Source: Chlorobiota bacterium
Lineage (GTDB): Bacteria; Bacteroidota; Ignavibacteria; OLB7
Length of the DNA stretch: 42,802 nucleotides
Assembly (NCBI GenBank): GCA_016788565.1
Contig: JAEUSP010000044.1
Location: 1 to 42,802, forward strand
Reading direction: 5' to 3'
Shown here: in pieces, positions 19,749 through 30,669 of the stretch
Numbering within the stretch: position 1 is the stretch's first letter
Layout of the letters: the number at the start of each line of letters is the position of its first letter
Notes under the pieces: generated by a model
Seen by the model: the letters and a program-made list of their open reading frames with translations, nothing else
Told to the model about the DNA's origin: nothing
Database searches by the model: none
Program-made: the position numbers and the translations under genes

Positions 19749-22700
19749 TTACGAGCAACCGCTGGTGGTTCCGCAGTCCTCGCAGACGTGGCAGGTGCCG
19801 TTTTGGCGCACCCGCATCGAGCCGCAGTTGCCGCATTGTTCGCCGGTGTAGCCTTGCGCTTTTGCGGTCTGGACCTTCTTCTGGTTTTCCCCCATCGGCT
19901 TTATTGGCGGGGCAACCGTGGGCGTATCCACCGCGCGGATTTGGCGGGCGTACAGCGATTGCCCGGGTGAGAGTTTCTGGCCGTTCCCATTGCCGTTTCC
20001 GTTGCCGTGGTGTTGGCCGCCCCCTTTTGCGTTTGCGCCGGTTTTTTGTTCGGCGGTTCCCCCTTCGTCAATCGCTTTCACGTGGATGAAGTCTTCGCGC
20101 CCCAGATACTCATACCCCAACGCCCGGAAGACATAATCAATGATGGAGGTGGAGGATTTGATGGCCTCGTGCCCGAACACCGGGCCCGATGGCTCGAACC
20201 TGGTGAAGGTGAAGGTATCCACCATTTTTTCCAGCGGCATTCCGTACTGCAAGGCTTTGCTGGCAAGCACCGCAAAGCAGTTCAGCAGCCCTTTGAAGCT
20301 GGCCCCTTCCTTGTACATATCAATGAAAATTTCGCCCAGCGTTCCGTCCTCGTACTCCCCTGTTCGGATAAAGACTTTGTGGCCGCCAACGGTGGCTTCG
20401 CGCACAAAACCGTGGCGGCGTTTTGGCAGCCGTCGGCGGTCGGCACGGTGATAGACTTTCTCCACAATGCGTTCGTGGATTTGGGCCGCACCAACGTTTT
20501 CATCCCAGCTGTTTTCATCCCCCATCATCTGGGTTGGCTCAACGGTAGCGTCGTGCAGCGTCACCTCCTCCACAAGGTCGGTGTCGGCGGTGGAGTTCAG
20601 CGGCTGCGATAGCTTGCTGCCGTCGCGGTACAGCGCGATTGCTTTCAGCATCAGCTTCCACGATTCCAGATAGACGTGGGCAACTTCATCAATGGTGGCG
20701 TGGTTCGGCATGTTGATGGTTTTGCTGATTGCCCCGCTGATGAACGGTTGCGCGGCGGCCATCATCTTCACGTGGCCCATGTGTTGGATGTAGCGTTGGC
20801 CATATTTGCCGCACTTGTTGGCGCAGTCAAACACCGGCAAGTGTTCCGGGTTCAGCCCCGGCGCGCCCTCAATCGTCATGGTTCCGCAGATAAATTTGTT
20901 GGCTTCCTCAATCTGCGTTGCGGTGAACCCAAGCCGCGCAAGGATGTTCAGCGATGGGTCCTCAAGCTCGGCTTGTGTGAAGCCAGCACCCCGCAGAACG
21001 TCCTCGCCCAGGGTCCATTTGTTGAAGGCAAATTTCACATCGAACACGCTGTCTAACTGGCCTTCGATTGTTTGGATGCTTTCATCGCTGAACCCGCGTT
21101 CTTTCAGGCTTTGCTTGTTGATGTGCGGGCATCCGCTTAGCGTGCCGTGGCCTTTGATGTAGCGTTCAATCTCAAGGATTTCGGATTCGGAATATCCCAA
21201 CGCCCGCAGCGCAGCCGGCACCGAGCTGTTCACAATTTTGAAGTAGCCCCCCCCCGCCAGCTTCTTGAATTTCACCATTGCGAAGTCCGGCTCGATGCCG
21301 GTGGTGTCGCAATCCATAATGAGCGCGATGGTGTTGTGGCTGATAAATCCGTTGGCCACGTAGGTCACGTTTTCGGGAACGGAGATGTCGTAGGTGAGTT
21401 GTTCGCCACCGTCTTCGTTGGCTTCTACGATGTCGTAGTAGTAGCCCAGTGCTTTTGCTATTTCGGTGTCGCCGGTTTGTTCATACACCCGTTGCAGGCT
21501 TGTGCGGGTGATTGCGCCGTGGCGTTGCACGGCAAGCATCACGGCGTTCCGTTCGGTGGGTTGTGATAGTGCTACATCAATCACTTCTTGCTCGGCATAG
21601 ATATAATCACGCCGTGCCGATTGGACGGTTTCCACCACGCGCACCGCATTGCGTTTGCGCGCCCCGATAAAGCCGATCTGTTCTTGGAATGCCTGGTTGT
21701 AGGATTGATTCAGCAGCCGCACCACGTACAGCGTGGAATCCCCCCACTGTGAATGATCTAACTTGGTTGTGGTTGGAATCCCCAACGCCAGCAGCAGCGA
21801 TTTCACTTGCGTGGAAAACGATTTGCGCCCGCTGCTCCAATGGGGAACTCCGTTGGTGACGGTTCCATCGGCCTCGAACAATCCACGCAGGAATGCTCCG
21901 TAGCAAGCTGGGTCGTTGGTATAAAGAACGGCGTTGGGAATCCGTGGGGTCCACCCCTTTCCAGAATGGTCCGGCGTTGGCTGCAATTTGTTGAAGCCGC
22001 TGGCCTGCCACCAATGGGTAAGCTGCACGCTGTTTACTCCAACTTCCACGTAGCCCTGGCGCGGGTCCAGATAGCAATCCAGATTGAAGAGCGATGCCAC
22101 CAAAGCGGTAATCCGTTGGGCAACGTCGTGATCTTCCTTGGAAACGCAGAATCGCAATCCTTTGCTGTGAAGCGAGCCACCCCCCATGAAGTATCCCACC
22201 AGTTCTGCAAGCTCGGGGGTCATGGTTTCTGGAACAGTGAGCCTTGGACTGGAGTTCCAGTGAAGCTGGCCTAACAATGGTAACCGCACGGTTTGCGGGG
22301 TTCCAACGCTGGCGTTCATCGAAAGCGGGAGGATGTCGCCAGAAGTGATCTCGGAGAATCGCTTCCATTTCCACTCTCTGGTGGAAGCATCAACCACTTT
22401 CACGCGGTGTTGCAGTGTTCCGGTGATTTCGTAGCCGCTGGATGTTCGGATAGTGCGGGTTGGAGCAATGCCGTTGATGTAGAATTTCGTGGCCTGCTTC
22501 TCCCCCTGGTCGGTCAGCACGGTAAAGTCGGCATCTTGCCACTGTTGGCCGTTGATGTCGCCCAGGGTTTCCAGCGGTACAAGGCCACGATTTGTAGAAA
22601 TCAGCGACCCGCCAACCAGGCATCCGGTCGGCGCAATCACACTGACTTGCGCGTTGCGGTAGCCATGTTGCTCACCCAGCGCAAGTGCCCGATCCCACGT

Positions 22701-25700
22701 CTCCTTTGCCGATTCGGAAAGGTTGGTTGGGCACAGTGAGTGATTGATTCCCACCGGCTTGATCGTCAGCCCTTCGTACTCGTAGTCGGGCGCGTTGTAG
22801 GCGGCGCGGCGGTGGTTCCGGATCACCCGCAGCATATCCTTCTCGTTCCGTTTGTAGTTGGGGAAGGGGCCAAGCTCACCTGCTATTTGCGCGCTGGTGG
22901 CGTAGGCTTCGCCGGTCATAATCGCGCTTAGCGCGCCGGCCCATGCGCGTCCTTCTTCGCTGTCGTAGGGGATTCCGGCGGTCATCAGCACCGTGCCGAT
23001 GTTGGCGTATCCAAGCCCAAGCGTGCGGAAATCGTAGCTTTTTTGGGCAATGGTTTTGGACGGGAACTGCGCCATCAGCACCGAGACCTCCAGCACAACC
23101 GTGAGCACCCGGCAAGCGTGTTTGTAGCCCTCAACATCAAAAACGCGCGTCTCGGCATCGTAGAATTTGGCAAGGTTGATGCTGGCCAAATTGCAGTTGT
23201 GGGCAATCATCCCCTCGGCAATCACCGAGTGCGTGAACGGCTCGGTGATGTCGTACACGGTGGTGAGCGCGTCCGGCTTGATGGAGGTAATCGCCACGGG
23301 GCGTGGATTTTTTTGTGCCGCGCTGAATGGGTGTGCAAGAATTGCCTGGGCGCGAGCATCTTTTTCGGCTGAGCACGGGAAGCCCACCAGCGTCAAGAAT
23401 TTCCGTGCTTGCTGGTTGTAGATATGCAGTTGCCCTTGTGGATTTTTGCGCCCTTCTGGGTGGTTCCATGTGATGCGGCTCACAATCCCCATATCGGAAA
23501 GGATCAACTGCACCGAACGGAGCAATGCCGGCGACGAGGATGCCAGCATGACTTCATCTTCCGTTGCCGAAGGACGAATAGAGCCATCGGCCGAGAAGAG
23601 GCCTTGCAGATATGCAACCTTAAGATCGTCGGCGATTTGGTGGAGCGTTTCCGGCACGTCCTTGTGCACGGCGGTTCCCTGCTTCATGCCGTAGTGGCCT
23701 TCTAAGTAGCGAACTAACGGGGCAGATTTGGAAACGATCTGCAGAACTCCATTGGCTTGTTGGCTTAGGTGGCACACACGATACTGCCCAGTGGATTCGG
23801 CCACCAAACGGCCATCGGAATCAATGGTTAGCTCAGTTTCTACAATGGGTTCAGCAACCAATGTTCCTCCGCTGCGGCTATCGGCATTGCGGGAAAGTTC
23901 GGTGTAGGCATCGGCAACCAAGCGTTGAAACTCACCTTCCATCTGCTGGGCGGTTGCCTGTTCTTGGGGGCCAAACACCATGGCCACATTCCCTTTTGAA
24001 AACACGCCCTCGCCGGTTAGCCAGCCCAATGCACGCCAACGGCGAACATCAGCTTCGTTGGACGTAAACGCAATCGGGTTGCCGCTTTGCCGAATATGGA
24101 TGCGATCGCTTCCCACCTGCAAGTGCTCCACCCGTTTCCATTGGCCATCATCGGTCAGGAAGCGGTGGTCGCCCGTTACGCGGATTGAACGGCCGTCCTG
24201 CAACGTCATCCGGTAGGTTTGCTTTGTGCCAACTTGCGTGACAAATGCCGGGCGGTGGGCGGTGATCCGGCGGTGATCCTGCTCGGAGTATAAATCGGTG
24301 GTGATCGTCACCGACTGGCCACGCTCCTGCATGTTGTACAACTCTTCCACGGTGCGCAGCCCCGCTGGTGTGCTGATCCGGGTTTCCGGGGCGAAGCAGG
24401 CCGTGTCATCCAAGAACATGTATTCGCTGCATGGATTGCTCCCGTTAATCTCGCCATCCTTCGGGCTGGTGTGCCACTCGTTAACGGTGGTGTGGAACTG
24501 AAGCCCGGGGTCGGCACAGCTCCATGCTGCGTAGTTGATCTTCTGCCACAGTTGGCGCGCCGCAATTGTTTTCACCGATTTGCCATCGGTGCGGCGAACC
24601 AGATTCCAGGGCGCGTCCTGCTCCACCGCGTCCATAAATTCGTTGGTGACGCGGACGGAGTTGTTGGAGTTCTGCCCGCTGGCGGTGATGTAGGCTTCCC
24701 CTTCGTAGTGGGTGTTGTAGGTCTGCACGTCGGACTTGGTGTGGCCCTGCTTCACCAGTGCCAACGCCCGTACAATTTGGCTCATCGGAATGCCGCGATT
24801 CAGTGCGCGTTGCACAAGGTCGTGAAGTTCAGTTCCGGGTTCGGTGTAGTCGTCGCCGTCGCGGGCGGCAACGGCCATAATTTCGTTCAGGAACAGGCTG
24901 TTCATTTTCGAGCCAGCAACCAAATCGGCCACTTTCTGCTCTTCCAGCATCTTCCAATCAATAAAGTTTTCAATATCTGGGTGGTCGGCGTTCAGGATCA
25001 CCATCTTGGCAGCGCGGCGCGTTGTTCCGCCCGATTTCACCGCCCCGGCAGCGCGGTCAGCAACTTTCAGGAACGACATCAGTCCGCTGGAAACACCGCC
25101 GCCGGAAAGTGGCTCGCCTTCGGCACGGATTGCGGAGAAATTGGATCCGGTGCCGGAACCGTATTTAAAAATCCGCGCCTCGCGGGTGATTAAATCAAAA
25201 ATTCCCCCTTCGTTCACAAGGTCATCGCTGACTGATTGGATGAAGCAATTATGCACCACAACGCCGTTAGCCGCAAACCGGGAAGTTTCGGTCTGAATAT
25301 CGAAGACTTCTTCCTCGCCAACATACTCAATCGAAACCACCTCTTCTTCTGACAAAGAAGATTTTTGCTTGCCAACAATCTGAGCATTTAATTTTTGCAG
25401 TTTTTCTTTTTTATCAGTGGAAATAAATCCAATCAACTGCTCATATTTTTTGCGTTCGGAGAAATAGGATATGCTCACCTGATATAGTGGCTTGCGGCTT
25501 GTTCTGCTATCGTAGCCAACCGTGATGTTGGAGTAAATACCGATACTCAACAGCAGCAACTGTACTCCATGCGCTAATTCTTCGGAGATTGTGGAAAGCA
25601 CAATGTCGCCCGCATTTTTTTTGCTGCGTATCCGCACACATCCATCGGCTTGGAAAAGCGAGCGCAGAAACAGCCGCTTTTCTTCTGAGGTGCCTCGGAA

Positions 25701-26993
25701 GATTTTTTCAGGAACCGTTGCGGTGAAAGAAGTAGCGTCTAATTCGTATTCTTCCACAAAAGAATCCACCACCTTCCGGTCCAGCTTCACGATGCGATAA
25801 TCGTTGCTGATGTTGGCGCGGGTAACAACGTTGTACTGGTTGAACAACGTCTCAAATAATCCGGTGACAAAAGCAAATTCATCATTGTTGATAGTAATAG
25901 CTCCGAACATGGTGGTTGTGCTATTACGATTGTGCTTGCCGTAGTATCCATCTCCAAGAATCCAGCCCGACAATGCAGCTTTTGCGTTGTTGATGCTTGA
26001 CGGCGATATGTCAGCAAAATCATTATTGGGAAGTTCAATTCCGGCATGTTGAAAAATATGCTGCAATTGCAATTCCGAAGCGTTGAATGATTTTTCCGCT
26101 GCGGCTACGCTTATTTCATCAAAAACTTCTTCTTCTGGATGCACCGGCATAGCAATTTGCTGAACCCGCCAGCCCAGTATTTCCCGCAGTGGATTCCAAT
26201 CAAATTTGCCACCTTCTTTTGTGCGCCGGTCAGAACTCCAGATACGGTGATCGTCGGTGAACTCAATAAAATTTCCATTGCGAAGCGTGGCGCGCCAGAT
26301 GGGCCGAACCCCATTATTCTTAACGGCCTGAATCGAGACCATTTTCTCACCATCAAACACCTTCAAATCGGTGCGATTATTCTCCACTATTTCGCGGATG
26401 CTGAGAACGCCAGCAGTGGTTGATAGGCGAGTGTTCCCGCGGGCGCAGGCGTGAGGTTGCGGGTGGGTGTAGGCATCCTTCGATTTAGTGAGTTTTCCGG
26501 TGGTGGGGTCAACGTAATAATGCCCCTGCGATGGCCCGGTGATTCCGTAAGCATAATTCAGCCCGGTGTTGAACCATTGGGGTGAGTTCGGCGCGGCCAT
26601 TTGCGCCAGAAGGATGTAGGCGTTCTCATCGTAGAATGCTTGCGCGTCCTCCTGGGTGTCGAAGTAGCCGTGATCTTTTCCCCACTGGGTCCAGCAACCA
26701 GCAAGCCGGTGGATCACTTGGCGCGCACTCTGCTCCCCCCCCATCATTGGGTTGCCCGATTCATCGGTTAGCGGGTTCCCGTTGGGGTCCAGCTGCGGCA
26801 CCCCGGCTTTGCGGAAATACTTCTGGGCCATGATGTCGGTGGCAACTTGCGACCACCCCTTTGGCACCTCGATGTCGTGCATTTGGAAGACGACCGAACC
26901 GTCGGGATTGCGAAGAACGGAAGAGCGAAGGGTGTACTCAAACTGGTCGTACACGCTCTGGCCTGCCTGTGTGAATCGGCGAGTGATTTGCAT
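19749..26993 (-). CDS. nrdJ: B12-dependent (class II) ribonucleotide reductase with three inteins
   Basis: The single 2414-codon frame encodes an adenosylcobalamin-dependent ribonucleotide reductase, which makes deoxyribonucleotides without oxygen-sensitive metal radicals. Exteins are residues 1-182, 583-865, 1267-1457 and 1888-2414; joined, they give 1183 residues. Key residues are the redox cysteine C583 (HA-CFIQSV), the thiyl-radical cysteine C855 in NPCSE, the second redox cysteine C1267 (TA-CNLASINL, 11 residues after C855 once spliced, as in class II enzymes), and the APTG-TIALIM phosphate loop. The C terminus has a TSCPD-like domain (~2140-2260) and a zinc ribbon (CxxC at 2387-2390, cysteines at 2401, 2404, 2407, 2413). 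The ATG at 26993 follows a GGAG. No frameshift or stop is seen in any intein or extein. It is the only nucleotide-reduction gene in the window. Confidence 0.97.
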   Translation of the reverse strand: MQITRRFTQAGQSVYDQFEYTLRSSVLRNPDGSVVFQMHDIEVPKGWSQVATDIMAQKYFRKAGVPQLDPNGNPLTDESGNPMMGGEQSARQVIHRLAGCWTQWGKDHGYFDTQEDAQAFYDENAYILLAQMAAPNSPQWFNTGLNYAYGITGPSQGHYYVDPTTGKLTKSKDAYTHPQPHACARGNTRLSTTAGVLSIREIVENNRTDLKVFDGEKMVSIQAVKNNGVRPIWRATLRNGNFIEFTDDHRIWSSDRRTKEGGKFDWNPLREILGWRVQQIAMPVHPEEEVFDEISVAAAEKSFNASELQLQHIFQHAGIELPNNDFADISPSSINNAKAALSGWILGDGYYGKHNRNSTTTMFGAITINNDEFAFVTGLFETLFNQYNVVTRANISNDYRIVKLDRKVVDSFVEEYELDATSFTATVPEKIFRGTSEEKRLFLRSLFQADGCVRIRSKKNAGDIVLSTISEELAHGVQLLLLSIGIYSNITVGYDSRTSRKPLYQVSISYFSERKKYEQLIGFISTDKKEKLQKLNAQIVGKQKSSLSEEEVVSIEYVGEEEVFDIQTETSRFAANGVVVHNCFIQSVSDDLVNEGGIFDLITREARIFKYGSGTGSNFSAIRAEGEPLSGGGVSSGLMSFLKVADRAAGAVKSGGTTRRAAKMVILNADHPDIENFIDWKMLEEQKVADLVAGSKMNSLFLNEIMAVAARDGDDYTEPGTELHDLVQRALNRGIPMSQIVRALALVKQGHTKSDVQTYNTHYEGEAYITASGQNSNNSVRVTNEFMDAVEQDAPWNLVRRTDGKSVKTIAARQLWQKINYAAWSCADPGLQFHTTVNEWHTSPKDGEINGSNPCSEYMFLDDTACFAPETRISTPAGLRTVEELYNMQERGQSVTITTDLYSEQDHRRITAHRPAFVTQVGTKQTYRMTLQDGRSIRVTGDHRFLTDDGQWKRVEHLQVGSDRIHIRQSGNPIAFTSNEADVRRWRALGWLTGEGVFSKGNVAMVFGPQEQATAQQMEGEFQRLVADAYTELSRNADSRSGGTLVAEPIVETELTIDSDGRLVAESTGQYRVCHLSQQANGVLQIVSKSAPLVRYLEGHYGMKQGTAVHKDVPETLHQIADDLKVAYLQGLFSADGSIRPSATEDEVMLASSSPALLRSVQLILSDMGIVSRITWNHPEGRKNPQGQLHIYNQQARKFLTLVGFPCSAEKDARAQAILAHPFSAAQKNPRPVAITSIKPDALTTVYDITEPFTHSVIAEGMIAHNCNLASINLAKFYDAETRVFDVEGYKHACRVLTVVLEVSVLMAQFPSKTIAQKSYDFRTLGLGYANIGTVLMTAGIPYDSEEGRAWAGALSAIMTGEAYATSAQIAGELGPFPNYKRNEKDMLRVIRNHRRAAYNAPDYEYEGLTIKPVGINHSLCPTNLSESAKETWDRALALGEQHGYRNAQVSVIAPTGCLVGGSLISTNRGLVPLETLGDINGQQWQDADFTVLTDQGEKQATKFYINGIAPTRTIRTSSGYEITGTLQHRVKVVDASTREWKWKRFSEITSGDILPLSMNASVGTPQTVRLPLLGQLHWNSSPRLTVPETMTPELAELVGYFMGGGSLHSKGLRFCVSKEDHDVAQRITALVASLFNLDCYLDPRQGYVEVGVNSVQLTHWWQASGFNKLQPTPDHSGKGWTPRIPNAVLYTNDPACYGAFLRGLFEADGTVTNGVPHWSSGRKSFSTQVKSLLLALGIPTTTKLDHSQWGDSTLYVVRLLNQSYNQAFQEQIGFIGARKRNAVRVVETVQSARRDYIYAEQEVIDVALSQPTERNAVMLAVQRHGAITRTSLQRVYEQTGDTEIAKALGYYYDIVEANEDGGEQLTYDISVPENVTYVANGFISHNTIALIMDCDTTGIEPDFAMVKFKKLAGGGYFKIVNSSVPAALRALGYSESEILEIERYIKGHGTLSGCPHINKQSLKERGFSDESIQTIEGQLDSVFDVKFAFNKWTLGEDVLRGAGFTQAELEDPSLNILARLGFTATQIEEANKFICGTMTIEGAPGLNPEHLPVFDCANKCGKYGQRYIQHMGHVKMMAAAQPFISGAISKTINMPNHATIDEVAHVYLESWKLMLKAIALYRDGSKLSQPLNSTADTDLVEEVTLHDATVEPTQMMGDENSWDENVGAAQIHERIVEKVYHRADRRRLPKRRHGFVREATVGGHKVFIRTGEYEDGTLGEIFIDMYKEGASFKGLLNCFAVLASKALQYGMPLEKMVDTFTFTRFEPSGPVFGHEAIKSSTSIIDYVFRALGYEYLGREDFIHVKAIDEGGTAEQKTGANAKGGGQHHGNGNGNGNGQKLSPGQSLYARQIRAVDTPTVAPPIKPMGENQKKVQTAKAQGYTGEQCGNCGSMRVRQNGTCHVCEDCGTTSGCS
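21333..22622 (-). other. Intein 3 of NrdJ (LAGLIDADG type)
   Basis: Residues 1458-1887, 430 aa. It begins CLVGGSLISTNRG and has ITGTLQHRV as block B. It ends TYDISVP...GFISHN. The next extein residue is Thr1888, so this intein uses a hydroxyl nucleophile at +1, unlike the other two. Dodecapeptides are LVGYFMGGGSL (1598-1608) and FLRGLFEADGT (1701-1711); in the first, Gly replaces the acidic residue, so its endonuclease may be impaired. Junction codons are TGC (22622-22620), AAC (21335-21333) and ACC (21332-21330). Confidence 0.95.
23196..24398 (-). other. Intein 2 of NrdJ (LAGLIDADG type)
   Basis: Residues 866-1266, 401 aa. It begins CFAPETRISTPAG and has VTGDHRFLT (block B, H943). It ends VYDITEP...GMIAHN. 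The following extein residue is C1267. Dodecapeptide-like motifs are RALGWLTGEG (987-996) and AYLQGLFSADGS (1127-1138). Codons at the junctions are TGC (24398-24396), AAC (23198-23196) and TGC (23195-23193). A segment near 1010-1080 between the motifs is rich in Glu/Ser and little conserved-looking. Confidence 0.95.
25248..26447 (-). other. Intein 1 of NrdJ (LAGLIDADG type)
   Basis: Residues 183-582 of the precursor, 400 aa. It begins CARGNTRLSTTAG (splicing block A) and has FTDDHRI (block B, H249). It ends VFDIQTE...GVVVHN (blocks F/G). The next extein residue is C583. Homing-endonuclease dodecapeptides are LSGWILGDGYY (341-351) and LFLRSLFQADG (441-451), both with the acidic residue kept, so the endonuclease may be active. 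The junctions were checked against codons: TGC at 26447-26445, AAT at 25250-25248, TGC at 25247-25245. Confidence 0.95.
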
Positions 26994-27343: not shown

Positions 27344-28894
27344 TTACCGCACCACCCCGAACTTCTGGCTTTGCTCCACTTCATCGCCATGCAGCCGCAG
27401 CATGTAGCTTCCGGTGGGCCAGCCCAGGACGTTCAGCTGAAGGATGCCGTTTGCGGGAACCGCTTGGCGCAGTAGCAGTTGGCCATGCTGCGACCAGCAT
27501 TCCACCGTAAGATCGCTGCGGCCGTTAGCTCCACGGATGAAAATTTCCGCTGTGCTACGCGCTGGGTTCGGCCATATCCCTTCCAACTGAACCGCAGGTG
27601 AGGTGGCCAGCGGGGCAGCAATCGGAAGCCCAACCTGGGCCCCTTTGAAGATTGGTACTTGCGCGAACGTCCGCTCGAAAACGTTTGGCACCAGCGATTC
27701 TGGTTCGGCCCCCAGCCATTGGCACATCAGCGAAGAATAGATCTGGCGGAAGTCGTACTGGAAACGGAGGTTGTCGTTCTCATCAAGGTTCACCAAATCG
27801 GGATCGGGGCCGATGATGCCGGGCTGCACACCGTTTCCAACCACCATCACCGGGGCTGCCGCGCCGTGATCGGTCCCCAAGCCTTGCGACTCCACCCTGC
27901 GGCCAAACTCGCTGATAACCATCAGGCAGACTCGGTCGGCAAGGCCACGCGACTCCAAATCGCGCTGGAACGTGTGGATGCACCGCCCAATTTCCGCAAG
28001 CCGTGCGGCGTGGTCGGGAAGTTGGTGGTGGTGGGTGTCGAATCCGGGCATTGTCACCAGCCATACGGAGGTCTCCACGCCAACATCAATCAACTTTGCA
28101 ATTGTGGAAAGCTCCGTTGCCAGCGGCGGATGTGATGGATACTCCACGGTTGGCTCGGTTGTTTTTGTGTTTGCCTCCATCAACGCGCCGATAAACTGGT
28201 GCGATTGGCGTGCAATCAGCCGCACGTACTCGGTCTCTATTTCGGCAGAGATCGTGATCCCGGTGCTGTTGCCTGTTGGCGCGGGAAGGTAGTGCAAGTC
28301 GTTCAGCGCAAACCCCATCGGCCCTTTTCGTCCCATCAGCGCGGCAGTCATAAACGGCCCCATCTCGATAGCAAACGGATAGGTTGGCAGTGCGTTCAAC
28401 GCGTCGGGGAATTGGTCTTCCAGATACCGCCCGTACCACCCGCTTGTCTCAAAAGTCCAGGCATCGGATCCGGTAAGCCAGATGTCGGTGGAGCGGAAGT
28501 GGGAGAGGTCCTGGTTGGGATAGCCGACGTTTTGCACCGCAGCCATTTTCCCTTCTTGGTACAGTTCATGCAGCAACGCCAACGATGGATGCAGCCCCAG
28601 CGTGGCGTGATCCGGCAGCAACAGCGTTTCTTCCGGCAGGATGGAGACGTTCCGGTTGGTCCCGCGGTGGCGAAAGCGGTAGTAGTTCTCATCATGCACC
28701 GGAACCAGTGTGTTCAGCCCGTCGTTGCCGCCGTACAGCCGCAGTATCACCATGGCGTTTTTGTTCCCAGCGGCGGTGCGTAGCAGCCCACGGCGTGGCA
28801 AGGCATGGGCAAACGCCTTGATTCCAACATGAGGCATCAATTGGGCAACAACGCCAGTAGCAGCAAGACCTTTCAGGAGTGAGCGGCGGTTCAT
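27344..28894 (-). CDS. DUF1501 exported protein with C-terminal T9SS sorting domain
   Basis: This 516-residue protein starts with a Tat-like signal (NRRSLLKGLAATG). The DUF1501 (sulfatase/alkaline-phosphatase-like fold) domain follows: RLYGGNDGLNTLVPVHD, HPSLALLHELYQEGK, QDLSHFRSTDIW, a TMPGFDTHH segment, and ISEFGRRVESQGLGTDHGAA near 305-325. The last ~85 residues form a T9SS type A sorting domain (WPNPARSTAEIF at its start, ending LRLHGDEVEQSQKFGVVR), so the protein should be exported and attached or released by type IX secretion. DUF1501 genes are typically paired with a DUF1800 gene, as here (18 bases). The exact reaction is not known for this family. Confidence 0.9.
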   Translation of the reverse strand: MNRRSLLKGLAATGVVAQLMPHVGIKAFAHALPRRGLLRTAAGNKNAMVILRLYGGNDGLNTLVPVHDENYYRFRHRGTNRNVSILPEETLLLPDHATLGLHPSLALLHELYQEGKMAAVQNVGYPNQDLSHFRSTDIWLTGSDAWTFETSGWYGRYLEDQFPDALNALPTYPFAIEMGPFMTAALMGRKGPMGFALNDLHYLPAPTGNSTGITISAEIETEYVRLIARQSHQFIGALMEANTKTTEPTVEYPSHPPLATELSTIAKLIDVGVETSVWLVTMPGFDTHHHQLPDHAARLAEIGRCIHTFQRDLESRGLADRVCLMVISEFGRRVESQGLGTDHGAAAPVMVVGNGVQPGIIGPDPDLVNLDENDNLRFQYDFRQIYSSLMCQWLGAEPESLVPNVFERTFAQVPIFKGAQVGLPIAAPLATSPAVQLEGIWPNPARSTAEIFIRGANGRSDLTVECWSQHGQLLLRQAVPANGILQLNVLGWPTGSYMLRLHGDEVEQSQKFGVVR

Positions 28895-28912
28895 GGTGGG
28901 TTCAGAATGGGA

Positions 28913-30553
28913 TCAGCAAAGATGAAACTGCGGTAGCTTGAAAATCGCTTCCAACAACTTGCGGATGCGGTCGCCCGTGCGTTGGGTTGGGTCGTCAAGG
29001 CTCCACTCGTACTCTTTCCCGCCGTCCAGCAACACCCCGTGCAAGGCTTCGCGTTCGGCGGCGGATAGTGGGGCGGCAACAAGAAGTTGGATGAGGTTAT
29101 CGCACAATGCGTGTGGGTCGTTTGGTTGCGGGAAGGTGCGGGCCAACTGAAGTGGATCGAAGGTGTACAGCCGCGCCAACTGCGGAAGGTCCGCGAAGTG
29201 GCGCACGTTGTTCCGCGCTATCTCCACCGCAAATTGCTCACGCTGCGCCAGCGTGGATGAGCTAACCCACGCCCGCCCTTGCCGCCACCCTTGAACATCG
29301 GGGGGATAAAAAGGCATCTCCCCAATTCCACTTAGCCGCCGTGAAAGGTTGTTGAACGGCGAGCGTGTGGTTCCATCGAAATCGGGAACGGATTGCAGCG
29401 ACAAGGTTCGGATCAGCCCCAAGTAGAACCCAACATGGGTTTTGTAAATCGCCCCTATGCTCTCCGGCAAATAAAAGTGCTGGCTTGCAAACAGCGTCCG
29501 CAGCACCGGCTCAATCTGCCAATCATTCTGGCGCAGCAGCGATGCCATTGCTTCGATCACCGTATCATCTGGCTGGTGGCGCACAAACGTGGTGTAGAGT
29601 TTTTGGCAGATGAACCAAGCAACCTGTTCGGCACGTTCGCTGAAGATGATCTCGATGATGTCGTCGGCATTCCAGTTCCCCCGTTTCCCCAAAAACACTT
29701 TCTCCCCCGGGTCCCAGTTCTCGGGAATGAACACCGACGCGGTGGAATGAAATCGGGAGTCGTTGGAACTCACTTGCGTGCCCCATCCGGTTAGCGCACG
29801 GCCCGCCTGGCGGACATCGGTTTCGGTGTAGTTTGGTTGGCCGTATCTATCCACCCTTCCCATTGTGAACAGCTCCATCAGTTCGCGGGCGTAGTTGGCG
29901 TTCAGTTGGTAGCGGTTGTTGGCTGACCCATCCAAAAAAATCAGCATCGCCACATCTTTGGTCATCGCACGGATCAGTTCTTTCACGCTTCCCAGCGCGT
30001 TGTTCCGCAGCGTCATGTTTTGCACAAACAGGAATTCGGCATACTCCACCTTTGCCGTTTGGGTGGGGATATGAGTATGCCAAAACAGGGTCATCCGTTC
30101 TTGCAGCGACGTTGGCGCGGTGCCGACAACGGCCAGCAGCCACATCCCCAAACGGTCGCGGCGTTCCAATTTTGCCGACACCCACACTTCATAATCGGGG
30201 CCTTCGGGCGGAGGGCCGGTATGCGGTTCTTTGCCAGCAAAGTCGGCGATGGCATCGGTGGACGGGGGCGTACGGCGCATCAGCCGGTTGATGGTTGCTG
30301 GAAGCCCTTCGGCAACCGCACGGCGTATCTCCCACTCCGCCGGGCCAATAATGCAGCGGCGCAACAGGTGGGCGGCTGTGCCATAGTTCCAAGCATCCTT
30401 GGTGGTAAAAGGGAAAGGAGCAAGCGGGTCGGTTACGGGATCGCCTGCGGTGATTGCCGGGCCGGAGTCCGGCAGCGCGTCCGCCGATGATGCAGAAGTG
30501 GGCTGAGCGAAGGGAACGGAAGCAGCAGAACGAAGAAATGAACGCCGGTTCAT
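28913..30553 (-). CDS. DUF1800 exported protein
   Basis: This 546-residue protein has an N-terminal Tat-like signal (NRRSFLRSAAS). The DUF1800 domain shows AHLLRRCIIGP, LFWHTHIPT, MLIFLDGSANNRYQLN, NYARELMELFTMGR, and YPPDVQGWRQGRAW near the C terminus. The biochemical role of DUF1800 is not established; it is usually encoded with DUF1501 proteins, and this pair is 18 bases apart on the same strand and so probably one operon. No T9SS sorting domain is visible in this member. The ATG at 30553 is chosen because it starts the Tat motif; an upstream in-frame start at 30658 would place 35 residues before it and overlaps the promoter-like repeats. Confidence 0.9.
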   Translation of the reverse strand: MNRRSFLRSAASVPFAQPTSASSADALPDSGPAITAGDPVTDPLAPFPFTTKDAWNYGTAAHLLRRCIIGPAEWEIRRAVAEGLPATINRLMRRTPPSTDAIADFAGKEPHTGPPPEGPDYEVWVSAKLERRDRLGMWLLAVVGTAPTSLQERMTLFWHTHIPTQTAKVEYAEFLFVQNMTLRNNALGSVKELIRAMTKDVAMLIFLDGSANNRYQLNANYARELMELFTMGRVDRYGQPNYTETDVRQAGRALTGWGTQVSSNDSRFHSTASVFIPENWDPGEKVFLGKRGNWNADDIIEIIFSERAEQVAWFICQKLYTTFVRHQPDDTVIEAMASLLRQNDWQIEPVLRTLFASQHFYLPESIGAIYKTHVGFYLGLIRTLSLQSVPDFDGTTRSPFNNLSRRLSGIGEMPFYPPDVQGWRQGRAWVSSSTLAQREQFAVEIARNNVRHFADLPQLARLYTFDPLQLARTFPQPNDPHALCDNLIQLLVAAPLSAAEREALHGVLLDGGKEYEWSLDDPTQRTGDRIRKLLEAIFKLPQFHLC

Positions 30554-30603
30554 GGGTGTGTCTGCGTGAAAGAATGAATGATGACAACTGTTCAAAATTG
30601 GCC

Positions 30604-30640
30604 GCCAACGATTGAAAGCCAACGATTGAAAGACAACGAT
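30604..30640 (-). repeat. 14-bp tandem direct repeat in the DUF1800 promoter region
   Basis: GCCAACGATTGAAA occurs at 30604-30617 and 30618-30631, and a partial GACAACGAT at 30632-30640, 51-87 bases upstream of the DUF1800 start. Tandem 14-bp spacing is not a whole helical turn. It may be an activator or repressor site, or a replication-slippage product. Confidence 0.6.
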
Positions 30641-30669
30641 GCAGGCAAAAGTTCTCACCCCACCAGGAA

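Follow-up and report, generated by a model that had tools for sequence, protein, structure and literature searches.

A class II (B12-dependent) ribonucleotide reductase (RNR) gene, nrdJ, lies in the stretch of DNA analysed here (the window, 42,802 nucleotides from a Chlorobiota bacterium) and carries three inteins, two of which stand directly before cysteines that align with the putative redox pair of the enzyme. Judging from sequence comparison, we consider it highly probable that this is an ordinary class II RNR into which three homing inteins, each of its own site-specific lineage, inserted independently. In the likeliest scenario, selfish elements have built up at codons of the active site, and the enzyme becomes functional only once they are spliced out; the layout is explicable without a regulatory role. 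The anatomy of the gene, the intact splice residues, the relatives of the inteins at the same sites and the patchy distribution are all observed directly. The gene offers a clean natural example of a redox pair whose two residues double as +1 nucleophiles of inteins, in an enzyme that seems to be the only RNR of its host, and it provides a test bed for asking whether placement at redox cysteines reflects target-site conservation alone or has been put to use.

The reading frame begins with ATG and runs without interruption, with 0 internal stops (Table 1). Pfam models PF02867 and PF08471 scored above their cut-offs, together with three LAGLIDADG_3 and three Intein_splicing stretches. Three NCBIfam models for B12-dependent RNR also exceeded their cut-offs: NF005736 (1787.5 bits against 1737), TIGR02504 (550.6 against 399.95) and NF005122. 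By these family models, above curated cut-offs, the predicted product is the class II ribonucleotide reductase NrdJ. Exact boundaries could be placed for all three inteins, bearing out the claim of the original prediction that one open gene holds three uninterrupted inteins. The predicted spliced extein has 1183 amino acids and 19 cysteines, and the solved NrdJ structures 7b9p and 7b9q match its residues 1–903. Its six-cysteine tail can be likened to the cysteine-rich domain (CRD) of S. nassauensis NrdJ, which, according to an excerpt of PMC5704485, passes electrons to the active site.

Table 1. Features of the intein-bearing nrdJ gene, with nucleotide positions in the window and residue numbers of the precursor (aa)
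Feature	Position	Strand	Remarks
nrdJ precursor, class II (B12-dependent) ribonucleotide reductase with three inteins (predicted)	19749..26993	-	ORF, Pfam, NCBIfam, 2414 aa
Extein 1, aa 1-182, C-terminal end ...THPQPHA	26448..26993	-	
Intein 1, aa 183-582, 400 aa, CARGNT...VVHN	25248..26447	-	same-site relatives G209, G411, G432
Codon C583 (extein C183), intein 1 +1 residue	25245..25247	-	aligned with T. maritima C134
Extein 2, aa 583-865, contains NPC855	24399..25247	-	
Codon C855 (extein C455), NPCSEY	24429..24431	-	aligned with T. maritima C322; intein-free in the window gene
Intein 2, aa 866-1266, 401 aa, CFAPET...IAHN	23196..24398	-	
Codon C1267 (extein C466), intein 2 +1 residue	23193..23195	-	aligned with T. 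maritima C333
Extein 3, aa 1267-1457, CNLASIN...VIAPTG	22623..23195	-	
Intein 3, aa 1458-1887, 430 aa, CLVGGS...ISHN	21333..22622	-	
Codon of intein 3 residue 148 (aa 1605), Gly in motif LVGYFMGGG	22179..22181	-	G034 relative: Asp (GYFMGDG)
Codon T1888 (extein T657), intein 3 +1 residue	21330..21332	-	aligned with T. maritima S493
Extein 4, aa 1888-2414 and stop	19749..21332	-	
C-terminal cysteine-rich tail, six Cys	19752..19835	-	resembles the CRD described for class II RNRs

Alignment to the more distant NrdJ of T. maritima paired C583 with C134, C855 with C322, C1267 with C333 and T1888 with S493 (the S493 stretch alone is a weak match, at 4.4 bits), placing the active-site cysteine triad, the equivalents of C134, C322 and C333, in the window NrdJ. 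We take C134 and C333 to be the redox pair and C322 to be the catalytic thiyl cysteine. The original prediction had assigned C583 and C1267, the +1 residues of inteins 1 and 2, to the redox pair, and the alignment places both exactly there; the 11-residue spacing that it gave between C855 and C1267 after splicing also holds (extein C455 and C466). As it had further stated, the +1 residue of intein 3 is a threonine, T1888, in IAPTG|T (the vertical bar marks the insertion point), for which the T. maritima counterpart is IAPTG|S493; the loop at this site presumably binds phosphate. Our literature search found no paper naming T. maritima C134/C333 or L. leichmannii C119/C408/C419; a passage of PMC9669993 states that the cysteine pair used by class I and class II RNRs is conserved and lies on betaA and betaF.

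Ten cysteine columns are invariant among 27 aligned NrdJ sequences from the class of the window genome, and two random picks among these ten would be the redox pair 1 time in 45. The placement is not an independent surprise, because inteins are known to favour such residues. Inteins favour conserved sites, according to part of PMC2814812, and an excerpt of PMC3359363 puts native intein sites at a mean of 8.3 Å from active-site residues, compared with 21.1 Å for other Cys, Ser or Thr residues. Intein placement near active sites is a published general pattern; among titles and abstracts, we found none that states placement at the NrdJ redox cysteines, and we do not claim that it is unpublished.

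In the mechanism that we propose, the nearly invariant active-site codons of A|CF, TA|CNL and APTG|T (sites 1, 2 and 3) would present homing endonucleases with a conserved DNA target, and the same three codons would supply the Cys or Thr +1 nucleophile for the intein. After translation, the Hint domains would fold and three class 1 splicing reactions would follow, each excision passing from an acyl shift at Cys1 through transfer to C583, C1267 or T1888 to Asn cyclisation. Only after splicing would C583 and C1267 be joined to their N-terminal neighbours, and they would then be usable as the turnover disulfide. That splicing occurs, and that homing brought the inteins to these sites, is what we infer from the comparisons below.

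The window assembly (4.58 Mb in 137 contigs, with tool estimates of 100% for completeness and 0.92 for contamination) gave a single match to PF02867, namely nrdJ itself. A separate intein-free NrdJ in use, which the original prediction had named as evidence that would count against it, is ruled out by this search, because the model matches only the intein-bearing gene in the assembly. A class I or class III enzyme as a replacement was also ruled out: the genome gave 0 matches to the NrdB radical subunit model (PF00268) and 0 to the NrdD (class III) model, which matched 7 and 6 of 14 control genomes, respectively. With no other RNR detected, and provided that the assembly is complete, the supply of enzyme therefore depends on splicing. 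The full dependence on splicing that had been claimed thus stands as far as other class I/II large subunits, NrdB and NrdD are concerned, and is conditional on a complete assembly.

The closest relatives located for the inteins sit at the same sites in other reductases. Intein 1 shows 57%, 55% and 54% identity to its site-1 counterparts in G209, G411 and G432; intein 3 is 64% identical to the site-3 intein of G034; and intein 2 is 60% identical to its counterpart in L071 (Acidimicrobiia) and 37% to that in L073 (Diapherotrites), with all of its ten best matches being site-2 inteins (29–60%). Against inteins at other sites, inteins 1 and 3 reached 23–30% among the matches listed. We built a tree with 34 rows from 38 cut inteins, leaving out L081_NPC and L107_virus_NPC (ends not located), the truncated site-1 intein of L079 and the short L084; the cut set lacked the intein of L085 at site 1 and those of L072, L078 and L080 at site 2, and the NP|C cuts of L069 and L076 carry one residue too many, the +1 Cys. 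In this tree, the four site-1 inteins formed one group (100/100), the window site-2 intein paired with that of L071 (100/100) and was joined with that of L073 (99/97), and the window site-3 intein paired with that of G034 (100/99). Site labels required 4 changes, compared with a mean of 13.8 when shuffled. Neither the site-2 inteins (2 changes, with 1 change in 0% of bootstrap trees) nor the NP|C inteins (3 changes, 0%) form one clade in a tree in which several rows have long branches, and these changes would run counter to a simple one-origin view. The host exteins of the window and L071 share 62% and 53% identity over two stretches, a third stretch, at 29%, lying within an intein-interrupted part; those of the window and G034 are 59–68% identical in three stretches. 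The similarity of inteins 2 and 3 to these relatives is thus close to that of the hosts, even though L071 comes from another phylum, which points to transfer or to slow change, neither of them proved.

To chart the same sites in distant lineages, we scanned 84,980 species genomes with the pattern HN-CNL[AG]SIN and obtained 14 site-2 loci, 13 of which lie inside an RNR extein (L075 lies outside). These 13 loci come from bacteria and archaea, namely Actinomycetota, Bacillota, Cyanobacteriota, Diapherotrites and Woesearchaeota (the class in which we place L080 is our assumption), and they set a lower bound on filled C1267-type sites, because the scan finds exact pattern matches alone. The same pattern gave three loci in the viral collection; the DNA retrieved for two of them matches RNR. 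Among 395 genomes of the window's own phylum, 43 matched intein 2 at E <= 0.001, with a best score of 42 bits outside the window genome, and, with loci opened in 8 of the 43 besides the window's, we found nothing closely related to intein 2 there. Site 3 is filled in G034, of the same phylum, and in the IMG/VR contig L107; the former was a chance find of the intein 2 search (the site-3 genome survey covered the class), and the latter is the one NrdJ with a site-3 intein among 32 loci from the viral scan. The site-1 viral scan gave four loci, with the match inside a reductase frame in none. In the phylum, the site-1 pattern HNCFIQ matched 13 genomes, compared with 1 for a backward control pattern, and the outcome rests on four of the 13: NrdJ inteins in the window genome and G209, and matches in G021 and G236 on contigs other than those of their NrdJ. 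When inteins 1 and 3 were compared with phage and plasmid records, the long matches among those listed were 19–29% identical and in other hosts; the matches listed also include one of 44% over 64 residues in SPbeta-type phage reductases and some that cover just the NrdJ extein tail of the query.

The window gene is not alone in its double redox layout: both cysteines are filled in L085 (IMG/VR; SS|C...HN|CFIIDI and SS|C...HN|CNLASI) and in L079 (Woesearchaeota; HN|CYVLPV and HN|CNLGSI). Both loci resemble the window NrdJ in having the two redox-pair cysteines as +1 residues in one RNR, but the site-1 intein of L079 is cut by the end of the locus. NP|C inteins (in L071, L073, G034, G289, G297 and others) likewise have an active-site cysteine as the +1 nucleophile; they use the C322-like catalytic Cys, whereas this site is empty in the window gene. 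They occur in 5 of the 13 site-2 loci (L069, L071, L073, L076 and L081), a count in which L081 is represented by the start of its intein alone and in which several of the 13 loci do not include the NP|C stretch, and also in G034, G071, G197, G289 and G297. The Mth RIR1 intein is, we presume, of the same type. Taken together with the window sites, these inteins mean that the equivalents of C134, C322 and C333 each serve as the +1 residue in some class II RNR.

Within the class, inteins in NrdJ are sparse. A total of 143 of 149 sampled genomes match NrdJ, 94 of them with a long form (>=61% identity) and 49 with a shorter, more distant one (48–57%). Over the stretch searched (extein residues 177–694), 88 of the 94 long-form proteins are intein-free, and an intein is present in the window genome, G001, G209, G411, G432 and G289; in G435 and G454, which are split over contigs, and in G446, which is ended by a contig end, the visible sites are empty. 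Site 1 is filled in four of the 94 (the window genome, G209, G411 and G432), and in the last three of these site 2 is not. Sites 2 and 3 are filled in the window genome alone, NP|C in G289 alone and GSG|T215 in G001 alone, and intein 1 was found in 0 of 4 other genomes of the family. G001 is a congeneric sister species with an NrdJ extein 93.6% identical in amino acids to that of the window; sites 1, 2 and 3 are all empty in it, and its single intein, at GSG|T215, had no BLAST match at E 1e-4 among the inteins compared.

The original prediction had concluded that each intein is hard to lose. This is reasonable as a principle, because loss demands precise excision at a conserved site (an argument made in a passage of PMC2814812), but as stated it is unsupported: the closest relative, with 94% extein identity, lacks all three inteins, and only 6 of 94 long-form NrdJ proteins hold any. 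The patchiness shows that gain or loss has occurred between close relatives. In a co-conversion test against G001, third-position identity was 0.60–0.69 around the three sites versus about 0.72, with uncorrected p values of 0.03–0.12 across five window sizes; the trace is weak, and the G001 intein near site 1 confounds it.

The same distribution bears on an improbable alternative, in which splicing stops in an oxidised cytosol, through a disulfide between C583 and C1267 or a block on either thiol, and the cell makes active reductase only when conditions are reducing. The disulfide, formed prematurely in the folded precursor or under oxidative stress, would then block both splicing nucleophiles. 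That the +1 residues of inteins 1 and 2 are both members of the redox pair fits such a checkpoint, as does the apparent lack of another RNR, and the recurrence of the double layout in L079 and L085 would fit convergence. There is also a precedent in M. smegmatis DnaBi1, an intein that is redox-controlled by way of its catalytic cysteine according to an excerpt of PMC6195587; for other inteins, the discussion in that source points to cysteines of the extein as partners in a disulfide. M. smegmatis DnaB is comparable in that one replication protein holds two inteins (DnaBi1 and DnaBi2, one of them redox-sensitive), but, in the part of PMC6195587 concerned, DnaBi1 differs in its host protein, in being a class 3 intein and in having the sensing pair inside the intein. 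Against a checkpoint stand the 88 of 94 long-form class members that are intein-free in the stretch searched, the sister G001 with both redox sites empty and the three genomes in which site 1 is filled without site 2, a pattern that fits accumulation at conserved sites. Redox gating is possible in NrdJ, with placement and recurrence the only points that we found in its favour. If it were real, the supply of DNA precursors would be tied to the cellular thiol state through protein splicing, and the same switch would have arisen convergently in other NrdJ proteins whose inteins sit on redox or catalytic cysteines.

Independent invasion by homing inteins, our preferred reading, accords with the residues of the elements themselves. 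All three inteins bear the marks of class 1: C1, a TxxH block B, a terminal HN and a +1 residue (Cys, Cys and Thr, respectively). In an alignment of 11 site-2 inteins, from which three viral ones were left out, C1, T75, H78, H400, N401 and C402 are invariant. The splice residues are thus intact in all three window inteins, which are predicted to splice. A fold model of intein 2, made with ten same-site relatives in the alignment, had a mean pLDDT of 85.7, and its best Foldseek matches in the PDB (7qsu, 1dq3 and 7qss; E 3.8e-17 to 7.4e-16, with modest TM-scores of 0.51–0.59) are inteins with a homing endonuclease. A Hint fold is accordingly modelled for intein 2 and is predicted from sequence for inteins 1 and 3. 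The three inteins contain 2, 3 and 4 cysteines.

The LAGLIDADG motifs keep their acidic residue in both copies in intein 1 (LSGWILGDG and LRSLFQADG) and intein 2 (ALGWLTGEG and LQGLFSADG). Intein 3 does not have the two acidic motifs of a LAGLIDADG homing endonuclease: its first motif reads GGG and that of the G034 relative GDG, and its endonuclease is probably inactive, because Gly replaces the Asp kept in that relative. This loss is what could be cited for a decaying gene in which at least one intein no longer splices, a reading that we regard as very unlikely, because the missing residue serves DNA cutting rather than splicing, all splice residues are intact, 2414 codons remain open and no other RNR was detected.

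Composition sets intein 1 apart. Its GC content is 45.9%, compared with 57.6% for the extein, and its GC3 is 49.5%, compared with 65.1% for intein 2, 64.2% for intein 3 and 71.9% for the extein. Intein 1 is foreign in composition relative to the extein; inteins 2 and 3 are unremarkable in GC, and their arrival may therefore be older. A chimeric contig or contaminating intein DNA, suggested by the GC of intein 1 below that of its surroundings and by a genome in 137 contigs, can be dismissed almost entirely, given three exact, in-frame junctions, same-site inteins in independent assemblies, the contamination estimate of 0.92 and the presence of inteins elsewhere in the assembly, in gyrA, gyrB and smc.

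As a case of homing inteins gathered in one reductase, the window nrdJ is a further example of a known mobile element, multi-intein reductases having already been published. The Trichodesmium RNR gene also holds several inteins but differs in having four, plus introns (Liu et al. 2003, as cited in part of PMC1635734). Excerpts of PMC4071816 place RIR1 intein alleles l, m and g (g by its place in a table) in one protein of an uncultured Chloroflexi, and alleles g and l in Chloroherpeton RIR1. Like the window gene, these reductases hold two or three inteins each, in site-specific alleles that are distributed across phyla; the alleles are known here by letter, without residues, and are not matched to the window sites. 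The NrdJ-1 split intein, with native exteins NPC and SEI (that is, NPC|SEI) in a passage of PMC13123727, is similar in lying at the NPC motif, beside what the motif suggests is the equivalent of the catalytic Cys. It differs in being inserted one residue later, with a +1 Ser, and in being split.

Several of the distant loci have features of their own. In L069, L071, L073, L076 and L081, an NP|C intein and a TA|C or ES|C intein lie about 11 extein residues apart, with a very short extein segment between them (in L081, the end of the first intein was not located). The NP|C inteins of L069 and L076 end in SLD|C, with Asp replacing Asn at the last position; we take Chy RIR1 to be another of the terminal-Asp inteins. 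That of L071 (aa 419–819 of the frame) ends in VVRN|C, without the penultimate His. The NrdJ frame of L107 (1738 aa) contains a site-3 intein of 253 aa, from which most of the endonuclease part is missing, and the start of an NP|C intein.

Inteins are not confined to nrdJ in these genomes. In the window genome (G000), we found further ones in gyrA (AAMRY|T; G000:C109, L133), in which the Tyr is presumably catalytic, in gyrB (SAGG|S; C105, L153) and in smc (GCGK|S, a P-loop by motif; C137, L152), giving at least six inteins in four genes. The sister G001 carries them in dnaE (FNK|S) and in nrdJ at GSG|T215 (L154, G001:C20; L038). A Bacteroidota-like host is suggested, elsewhere in the window (27347–30658 and 36105–38984), by a DUF1501/DUF1800 gene pair and by weak to moderate matches to T9SS-type sorting domains (Por_Secre_tail).
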